Below are positions 15,755 through 32,441 of a DNA stretch of 32,489 nt, in pieces; position 1 is the stretch's first letter, and the number at the start of each line of letters is the position of its first letter. Position numbers and translations under genes: made by a program. This DNA comes from Tannerellaceae bacterium (GTDB lineage Bacteria > Bacteroidota > Bacteroidia > Bacteroidales > Tannerellaceae): positions 1 through 32,489 of the forward strand of contig JAITRG010000077.1 in NCBI GenBank assembly GCA_031288515.1, in the 5' to 3' direction. Under the pieces are notes generated by a model that worked only from the letters and a program-made list of their open reading frames with translations, was not told the DNA's origin and searched no databases.

Positions 15755-16408
15755 TTATCCTATCACCTTGGTTATGGGGTCAGACCAGGGGCCTTCCTGC
15801 AGGCGGGGGTTCATCCAGGCGGCGGTAAGGACGATGCGCCGGCCTTCGTCCTTCATGTTGAAGTAGAGCGTGAGCCGCAAGCGGGTAGACAATTCAAGAC
15901 GCCATTCCACTTCTTCTTCAAACTTCCAGTGGAGCTTGAAGCCATGATAGGGCTTGAGCTGTACGCCCTGCGTGGGCTGTCCGTGCTCGCTGCGGGCGAC
16001 GTATACCACGAGTTCGTCTTTCCGGTACGCGGTACTTACAAGGGGAGCTTCCGTGGGCACAGGCAGCGGCCGCCGTCCGGGGCGCACGCGGGGGCGGAGG
16101 CTCATGAGGGCTAGGGCGGCGTCGGGCACGGTTTCCTGGCCTTCAAGGTAGTTGATAAAGATCGAAAGGAAGCCCTTCAGATCGGCGAAGGCCCTCTTTT
16201 TTCCCACCGACGTAACATGGTTGCGCGTAGCGCGGTCGCTATTGGCCTGGTAAGCCTTGCTTGCGTCGGCTATCAGAGCGTAGAGGCTTGCCAGGCGCGC
16301 CCCGTCGAGGCCCCAGCTTGCCGAGTGTTCTTTACACTGCTCATAAATAGTGTTTACAAATGCCAGGAATTGCCCGTCCGGCAGCGCATGATAACGTACT
16401 TGCCCCAT
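15755..16408 (-). CDS. Uncharacterised 217-aa protein, paralog of 31459-32112 (paralog 1)
   Basis: MGQVRYHALPDGQFLAFVNTIYEQC...LRPRVRPGRRPLPVPTEAPL...QPTQGVQLKPYHGFKLHWKFEEE...AAWMNPRLQEGPWSDPITKVIG; start moved from 16465 to 16408 because length and N-terminus then match the paralog. Confidence 0.8.
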   Translation of the reverse strand: MGQVRYHALPDGQFLAFVNTIYEQCKEHSASWGLDGARLASLYALIADASKAYQANSDRATRNHVTSVGKKRAFADLKGFLSIFINYLEGQETVPDAALALMSLRPRVRPGRRPLPVPTEAPLVSTAYRKDELVVYVARSEHGQPTQGVQLKPYHGFKLHWKFEEEVEWRLELSTRLRLTLYFNMKDEGRRIVLTAAWMNPRLQEGPWSDPITKVIG

Positions 16409-16460: not shown

Positions 16461-16505
16461 AGCAAAGATAAAAGAATTATCAGGAATCCCTATACTATTT
16501 CATTG
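16461..16505 (-). promoter_or_regulatory. Conserved promoter-like block of paralog 1, -7 element TATCTTTG at 16463-16470
   Basis: agcaaagataaaagaattatcaggaatccctatactatttcattg aligns with 32165-32209; -7 element lies 55 bp from the start codon in both loci. Confidence 0.6.
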
Positions 16506-17596
16506 ATTTTTATTTATTTCCACATAATTCTTACTTGTTTCCGGGCGATTCCTATCTATTTCCGGACAAGTCTTATCTATTCCCGGACGATTCTTATCTA
16601 TTCCCGGACGATCCTTATCTATTCCCGAGCGATCCTTATCTATTGTCGGGTAATTCCTATCTATTTCCAGGTGATTCTTATCTATTTTCGGACGATTCTT
16701 ATCTGTTTTCGGATGATTTCTATCTATTTCTGGGCGATTCCTATCTATTTCCAGATAAATCTTATTTATTTTCGAATAATTCTTATCTATTTTCGGGTGA
16801 TTCCTATTTATTTCCGGATGATTTTTATCTATTTTCAAGTAATTCTTATCTATTGCTAGATGATTCCTATCTATTTCCGGGCAATTCTTATTTATTGTCG
16901 GGTAATTTCTGTTTATTTCTGGGTAATTCCTATCTATTTTTAGATAAATCTTATCTATTTTCGGATGATTCCTATTTATTTCCGGATGATTTTTATCTAT
17001 TTTTGAGTAATCCTTATCTATTTCTGAATAATTTCTATCTATTGTTGGGTGATTTTTATCTATTTTCAAGTAATTTTTATCTATTGCTGGATGATTCCTA
17101 TCTATTTCCGGGCAATTCTTATTTATTGTCAGATAATTTCTGTTTATTTCTGGGTAATTCTTATCTATTTTCAGGTAATTCCTATTTATTTCCGGGTGAT
17201 TTTTATCTATTTTTGAGTAAATCTTATCTATTTCTGGATAATTTCTATCTATTGTTGGGTAATTTTTATCTATTATTAAGTAATTTTTATCTATTTCAGG
17301 TAATTTTTATCTATTTTCAGGTAATTTTTATCTATTTTCGGGTGAATTATATTTGTTTCTATGCAAATTATATTTGTTTTTTGATAATTTTTATGTGTTT
17401 CCAGGTGAATTTCATGTATTTCAGATAAATTTTATGTGTTATTGAATGAAGTTTATGTGTTATTGAGTAAATCTTATTTGTTTTTGAATAAAATTTATAT
17501 GTTTTTGGATAAACCTTATTTATTTTTAATAGATTCTACATGTCTTCAAGTTGACTTTATGTATTTTTCTGCAAATTCTATGTGTTTTTGAGTAAA
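16505..17596. repeat. 21-bp-period tandem array, about 52 units, consensus near gattcttatctattttcgggt, with higher-order repeats
   Basis: Manual register, e.g. gattcctatctatttccggac / gattcttatctattcccggac / gatccttatctattgtcgggt; 20-bp units only in the distal part. Confidence 0.95.
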
Positions 17597-17613
17597 CTTT
17601 GAATGAATAATCT

Positions 17614-31458: not shown

Positions 31459-32112
31459 TTATCCTACCACCATGCCGATGGAGGGCGCCCAGGGGCCTTC
31501 CTGCAGGCGCGGGTTTATCCATGCTGCTGAGATGGTTACGCGGCGCGTTTCATCCTTCGCATCAAAAAAGATGGTGTGATGAAGGCGGGTGGATATTTCG
31601 ACATGCCAGTCTGCTTCCTCTTCGAACTTCCAGCGCAGCTTAAAGCCGTGATAGGGCTTAAGCTGTACGCCATGGGCGGGCTGTCCCTGCTCGCTGCGGG
31701 TAACGTATACCGTTATCTCGTCGTGCTGCTGCGAAAAGCGGAGCAGCGGGGCTTCCGTGGGTACGGGCAGCGGCTTGTGCGCAGGCTGCGTGCGCGGGCG
31801 GAGATGCATGTCTGCCAGGTTTTCGTCCGTCACCTCTTCATTGCCTTCAAGGGCGTCAATGAAGAGCGAGAGGAAATGTTTCAACTCTCCGAATGTCAGT
31901 TTTTTCTCCACAGAGGTAAGATGATTGCGCGTGGAAGGCGTATTGTTGGCTATGTATGCATTGGTAGCTAAGCGTGTATGCATTTCCAGCTTTTTTACGC
32001 GTTCTGCGTCTAACTTCCAGTTAATCTGATGGTCATTAACCTGTGTGTAAAAATCGTTGGCAAAAGCAATGAACTCTTTGTCCGATTGCTTTAAGGTACT
32101 TCTCCTGTTCAT
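31459..32112 (-). CDS. Uncharacterised 217-aa protein, paralog of 15755-16408 (paralog 2)
   Basis: NDHQINWKLDAERV...STRNHLTSVEKKLTFGELKHFLSLFIDALEGN...LRPRTQPAHKPLPVPTEAPLL...GVQLKPYHGFKLRWKFEEE...AAWINPRLQEGPW. Confidence 0.85.
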   Translation of the reverse strand: MNRRSTLKQSDKEFIAFANDFYTQVNDHQINWKLDAERVKKLEMHTRLATNAYIANNTPSTRNHLTSVEKKLTFGELKHFLSLFIDALEGNEEVTDENLADMHLRPRTQPAHKPLPVPTEAPLLRFSQQHDEITVYVTRSEQGQPAHGVQLKPYHGFKLRWKFEEEADWHVEISTRLHHTIFFDAKDETRRVTISAAWINPRLQEGPWAPSIGMVVG

Positions 32113-32164
32113 GATTAATTTAATTTAAGCGTTTAATATAATGATCCTTTTTCTTATAAAGCGT

Positions 32165-32209
32165 ATCAAAGATAGCAGAATTATTGATAACATCTATATT
32201 ATTTCAATT
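32165..32209 (-). promoter_or_regulatory. Conserved promoter-like block of paralog 2, -7 element TATCTTTG at 32167-32174
   Basis: atcaaagatagcagaattattgataacatctatattatttcaatt, matching 16461-16505. Confidence 0.6.
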
Positions 32210-32231
32210 TTTTTTTGCATGGGATTGAAAA

Positions 32232-32441
32232 AAATCCGCGCAGAAACGGGTGATTTCCACGCAGAAACGAGCCTTTTCTACACGGAAACGAGCGATTTCC
32301 ACACAGAAACGGGCTTTTTCCACACGGAAACGGGCTTTTTCCACGCGGAAACGGGCGATTTCCACGCGGAAACGGGCGGCTTCCACGCGGAAACGGGCGG
32401 CTTCCACGCGGAAACGGGCGATTTCCGTGGGGAAAGTTACG
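32232..32441. repeat. 21-bp-period tandem array, about 10 units, consensus near atttccacgcggaaacgggcg
   Basis: Units 32253, 32274, 32295, 32316, 32337, 32358, 32379, 32400 in exact 21-bp register; degenerate ends. Confidence 0.95.

Follow-up and report, generated by a model that had tools for sequence, protein, structure and literature searches.

The window analysed here is a stretch of 32,489 nucleotides of contig JAITRG010000077.1 from a Tannerellaceae bacterium (assembly GCA_031288515.1). It carries two copies of a module consisting of a short gene and an upstream tandem array. Copy 2 of the gene lies at 31459..32112 on the minus strand and spans 654 nt including the stop codon, encoding 217 aa. 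A Bacteroidota-type -7 promoter box (TAnnTTTG), here TATCTTTG, occupies 32167..32174 (minus strand), between the array and the ATG, with its start at -62 and its end 55 bp short of the ATG. The array itself, on the same strand, was placed by autocorrelation at 32235..32435, with about 9.6 units of gene-strand consensus TTTCCGCGTGGAAATCGCCCG and a score of 123, compared with at most 10 in shuffles; TRF reports 32235-32426, period 21, 9.1 copies, score 237 and 0% indels. The first-pass annotation had described a gene of 654 nt, a TATCTTTG box 55 bp from its ATG and a 10-unit 21-bp array beginning at 32232. The ORF at 31459-32112 and the box at 32174..32167 agree with this, and the array is real, its quoted limits (32232 and 32441) being off by a few bases.

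Copy 1 is encoded at 15755..16408 on the minus strand and is also of 217 aa; the two proteins are 56% identical. Its TATCTTTG box (16463..16470, minus strand; locus L003) has the same -62 offset, and its 21-bp array, at about 16506..17597 (minus strand), is longer, with about 49 units unrelated to the copy 2 unit, so that the earlier observation of a constant period with differing units was correct. Self-comparison of the genome, which had been proposed as a way to find further paralogs, yielded two, on contigs C103 and C165, each with an upstream 21-bp array of yet another unit. Copy 2 is about 55% identical to its three paralogs in this genome. In the C103 paralog (L002) the ORF runs in frame through part of its own array, giving a heptapeptide-repeat N-terminus if translation starts at an upstream ATG.

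The family proteins are about 220 aa long. An AlphaFold2 model of copy 2 (pLDDT 92.4, pTM 0.65) predicts an N-terminal four-helix bundle (residues 11-101) followed by a C-terminal FN3 beta-sandwich (residues 123-215). Foldseek searches with this model matched only FN3 domains in the PDB (E about 1e-6) and FN3 and tail proteins among viral proteins; no DNA-binding fold was matched. The median pI of the family is 6.5, not basic, and DNA binding is thus indicated neither by charge nor by fold. The protein falls within no family of Pfam, NCBIfam, PHROGs or PADLOC, and sequence search found no solved relative. A Pfam Hom_end_hint match (E=0.001, 19.5 bits, below the 32.1 cutoff, one member only) was attributed to chance, as were other weak profile matches to the family. 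A tblastn search of 72,556 plasmid records with a family member gave no match; phage or plasmid cargo was rejected, as plasmids, phages and viral contigs yielded no copies at the sensitivity used. A defence system was likewise rejected on the lack of a PADLOC match and of any recurrent neighbouring gene in 80 loci.

A first set of 61 genomes (this one and 60 relatives) gave 30 loci, and a scan of a genome collection found 294 relatives; 80 of them were retained. The family ranges over Bacteroidales and other Bacteroidota. By their record titles the relatives are Bacteroidales MAGs and some Planctomycetaceae MAGs, probably from termite guts, judging by names such as Candidatus Symbiothrix and by isolate codes. 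Members in Planctomycetaceae-labelled MAGs (L063, L066-L068, L073, L075, L077, L078 and L080), most with 21-bp arrays, reflect either horizontal transfer or binning contamination.

Among the 93 distinct loci whose upstream DNA was long enough, the upstream array has a period of exactly 21 in 88 and of 22 in one. Autocorrelation found no 21- or 22-bp array in the other four, which include L018, with only 124 bp of upstream DNA, and L072, with a strong 42-bp array. The array that almost always precedes a family gene ends roughly 20-150 bp short of the ATG. In a matched control, 79 of 89 family genes had a 21-bp array no more than 400 bp away, compared with none of 122 neighbouring ORFs from the same loci (p=2e-47). 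The first-pass annotation had proposed that period and placement are kept without sequence, and had allowed that other 21-bp arrays in the genome would make the association a coincidence. Such arrays do exist in this genome, but the shuffles and the matched control rule out chance, and the proposal stands: gene and array form one module, in which the unit is nearly free to change and the period and position are not. Very distant relatives from other families and classes (G317, G221, G451, G698, G599, G471, G582 and G536) have 21- or 42-bp arrays too, mostly around -300 to -50. One distant subfamily has no near array; its gene stands in divergent orientation to a LuxR-type regulator, beyond which repeats were seen in four of six loci inspected. 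L142, L144, L140 and L132, from other Bacteroidales families, belong to this subgroup and have repeats of the 21/42-bp type past the regulator. At L011/L053 (G005, contig C245) a family gene without a 21-bp array is preceded, at a distance of about 0.9-1.2 kb, by a 41-bp array.

The placement of the promoter is less general than first described. The box is at -62 or -61 in the close subfamily (L001-L005) and at -72/-75 in two more loci (L006/L017), but in most other relatives the stretch from array to ATG contains no such box, and the position of the array relative to the promoter differs among subfamilies. A specific UAS position was rejected; promoter-like boxes point away from array edges in 15/60 and toward them in 6, which is suggestive only.

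Unit similarity between loci is near background for nearly all pairs, and even proteins 88-91% identical carry unrelated units (matching at 10-13 of 21 positions). Purifying selection acts on the proteins, with dN/dS of 0.19-0.36 across eleven close pairs. Over 22.2 kb of array we counted 38 indel bases and 3338 substitutions, a measure of how faithfully the period is kept, and higher-order periods of 42, 63 and 84 point to repeated segmental duplication. Palindromes exceed those in shuffles over all units taken together (Fisher chi2 324 on 176 df) and occur in a minority only, the palindrome of the single unit being non-significant in 67 of 88; a reading of the arrays as hairpins alone was ruled out on this count. 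Also rejected were coding heptad repeats (21 bp being seven codons), with open frames only about 10% over expectation and equal on both strands, and a one-strand or RNA function, with no clear skew of GC or AT with respect to the gene. Repeat peptides can be read from L101, L068, L109 and others, as well as L002, with no strand preference. The lack of a coding signature and of strand asymmetry is consistent with a function as double-stranded DNA.

The array of copy 2 has matches on 11 other contigs of its own genome. At least one pair of these, C11 and C29, looks like halves of one array split by the assembly, since the dxs region of relative G008 has the C11 flank, and about ten distinct copy-2-type loci therefore result. 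Contigs often end inside arrays (e.g. L046, L047, L051 and L066), so that draft genomes under-count arrays and split single ones, as with C11 and C29. The copy 1 array has no cognate array elsewhere in the genome. More widely, many of these dispersed (orphan) arrays share the unit of a gene array in the same genome, matching at 15-18 of 21 positions. Those of G010 and G012 match at 17-18 of 21 where matched, and many orphans match none of the partial set of gene units compared. A unit that differs from gene to gene and is yet echoed elsewhere in the genome suggests that spacing and position are kept, not sequence. The dispersed arrays are intergenic, many orphans lying upstream of other genes, and among 12 arrays of this genome almost no common leader, tail or terminal inverted repeat was found, only those on C74 and C39 sharing a short flank.

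Copy-2-type arrays are present in this genome (G000) and, in similar number, in G016 and G008; they are absent from G017, G015, G011 and G007. G015, G011 and G007 yielded no family gene, and in G017 a single, distinct member lies at the end of a contig; the G008 assembly is 58% complete, and the copy-2-type gene was not recovered there. A 21-bp array lies upstream of dnaB in G000 and G016 and upstream of dxs in G000, G016 and G008. Neither is found in other genus members with upstream DNA available; dxs of G001 has a 23-bp array. All of this comes from a single clade, so that the coupling is at a minimum one of descent and only possibly causal. The periods of other dispersed arrays sampled in the genus fall mostly at 21-23 and 40-44, near two and four helical turns, and relatives negative for the gene also hold some 21- or 22-bp arrays.

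We pooled 373 copy-2-type units from 34 arrays in three species. Two half-sites are kept, TTTC at positions 1-4 and GGAA at positions 10-13, with the palindromic core TTCCGCGCGGAA. Information is about 1.1-1.8 bits in the half-sites and 0.2-0.7 bits in the variable linker at positions 14-16 and 18-19. With a period of 21, one face of the DNA carries the half-sites at intervals of about one helical turn.

The reading that we prefer, at a probability of roughly 0.4, is that the arrays are helically phased docking platforms of double-stranded DNA, each tied to its own family gene. As 21 bp is two helical turns, all docking sites of such a multi-site platform would face the same side. The cognate factor would be encoded by the adjacent gene and would act singly or together with a partner; it would load on its own upstream array, in autoregulation, and also in trans on orphan arrays, many of them upstream of other genes, which it might so regulate. 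Each set of gene and arrays would then have a private label that drifts fast by concerted repeat turnover. Docking is favoured by the association, the exact period, the missing coding and strand signatures, the overall excess of palindromes, the units shared in trans, the distribution of the copy-2-type, dnaB and dxs arrays, the kept half-sites, the purifying selection and the near-two-turn and near-four-turn periods of other arrays in the genus. Its main difficulty lies in near-identical proteins with unrelated arrays, which ordinary sequence-specific binding would hardly explain unless specificity depends on few residues. Further points against it are the lack of a known DNA-binding fold, the pI, the 67 units without a palindrome, the partnerless copy 1 array, the 21- and 22-bp arrays of gene-negative relatives and an array-promoter position that varies by subfamily. 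A satellite-like system, in which the two-turn spacing and not the sequence would be recognised, and each FN3-domain protein would be paired with a private label shared with trans arrays, is possible and on balance rather doubtful.

The main rival, though unlikely, is a selfish dispersed repeat working like REPIN/RAYT, the gene array being the master, the orphans non-autonomous copies spread with the gene product's help and any regulation incidental; the sequence would drift with the divergence of each lineage. The intergenic location fits this, as does the presence of about ten arrays of one type in G000, with similar numbers in G016 and G008 and none in four relatives, three of them with no family gene detected and the fourth (G017) with its one distinct member. 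The comparable BrickBuilt minisatellites of Porphyromonas gingivalis are described as MITEs (PMC4596501). Against it, the predicted helical bundle and FN3 domain offer no transposase-like fold or catalytic motif, the orphans share the repeat and almost nothing of a flanking leader, tail or terminal inverted repeat, searches of plasmid, phage and viral sequences found no copies at the sensitivity applied, and transposition needs no exact 21-bp period.

It is improbable that a different host factor reads the helical phasing or DNA shape, with the family protein merely its regulated target. Such a factor would account for near-identical proteins with unrelated units, for the neutral pI and missing DNA-binding fold, and for the distant subfamily with its array beyond the LuxR-type regulator. 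Within a genome, however, the unit types follow individual family genes, so that one reader shared by all would need to be blind to sequence, and yet the half-sites are conserved. Equally hard to credit is a mutational by-product, by which local slippage or unequal exchange (perhaps provoked by the protein) repeatedly makes 21-bp tandem duplications in front of the family gene that serve at most as a variable-number expression switch, since this suits the complete unit turnover at constant period and the segmental duplications at 42, 63 and 84 bp but leaves unexplained the unit sharing by orphans, the persistence of the dnaB and dxs array positions between species and the half-sites kept over linkers.

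RAYT proteins are Y1/HUH transposases, and REPs are not known to form long fixed-period tandem arrays. As in REPIN/RAYT systems, a gene lies beside a palindromic repeat that is also dispersed in the genome (true of copy 2, not of copy 1), and each gene lineage has a repeat type of its own; unlike RAYT, the family protein has no Y1/HUH match and no Pfam or NCBIfam match above cutoff, with a helical and FN3 structure predicted. Among plasmid arrays, the 43-bp units of F sopC are bound by SopB, and RepA iterons are of about 22 bp. The arrays here resemble these iteron and centromere arrays in being tandem, helically phased and often palindromic sites adjoining the gene of a putative binding protein; they differ in being chromosomal, multi-copy and free in sequence between paralogs, with no Rep or ParB homology, plasmid match or recurrent neighbour genes. 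CRISPR arrays have constant repeats, unique spacers and cas genes, whereas these units are contiguous without spacers, and no recurrent neighbour was seen in 80 loci. BrickBuilt (Klein et al. 2015, PMC4596501) is a minisatellite/MITE with a 23-nt unit, present 19 times in one genome in imperfect copies and with reported promoter activity. Like it, the present arrays are dispersed intergenic tandem arrays of a unit of about two turns in Bacteroidales. BrickBuilt has a leader, a tail and small inverted-repeat ends, and the accessible part of its description names no associated gene family, whereas here the flanks are not shared, the period is 21 and not 23, and the arrays are tied to a gene family. 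In the open-access literature searched, the closest known systems are BrickBuilt, REPIN/RAYT and plasmid iteron or centromere arrays, and each departs from the module in at least one of the defining features tested; the apparent novelty rests on these differences and that literature, not on a demonstrated mechanism.

An uncharacterised Bacteroidota family appears locked to a DNA architecture set by spacing and place and not by sequence, and its cognate arrays are dispersed over the genome. Should the protein read these arrays, the system would add a new means of organising or regulating bacterial chromosomes and would parallel, in prokaryotes, the fast-evolving satellites of constant monomer length; if the arrays are selfish, they would represent a dispersed element of a new type that comes with an unusual protein. 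In both cases, the family offers a candidate gene behind orphan minisatellites of the BrickBuilt kind.

Some minor observations concern the repeats themselves. The motif CCGTAAC was seen at array edges five times against 0.2 expected, a post hoc count over few arrays. A 22-bp array at 623-794 of the window, with units containing AAACCATT and AATGGTTT (an inverted pair), has no family gene beside it, and similar 22-bp repeats occur at 12245-12431 of L168 (contig C16 of the same genome), which suggests a second dispersed type without an identified gene. In a sample from the gene-positive genome G018 (L268-L277), 40-42-bp arrays dominate over 21-bp arrays.
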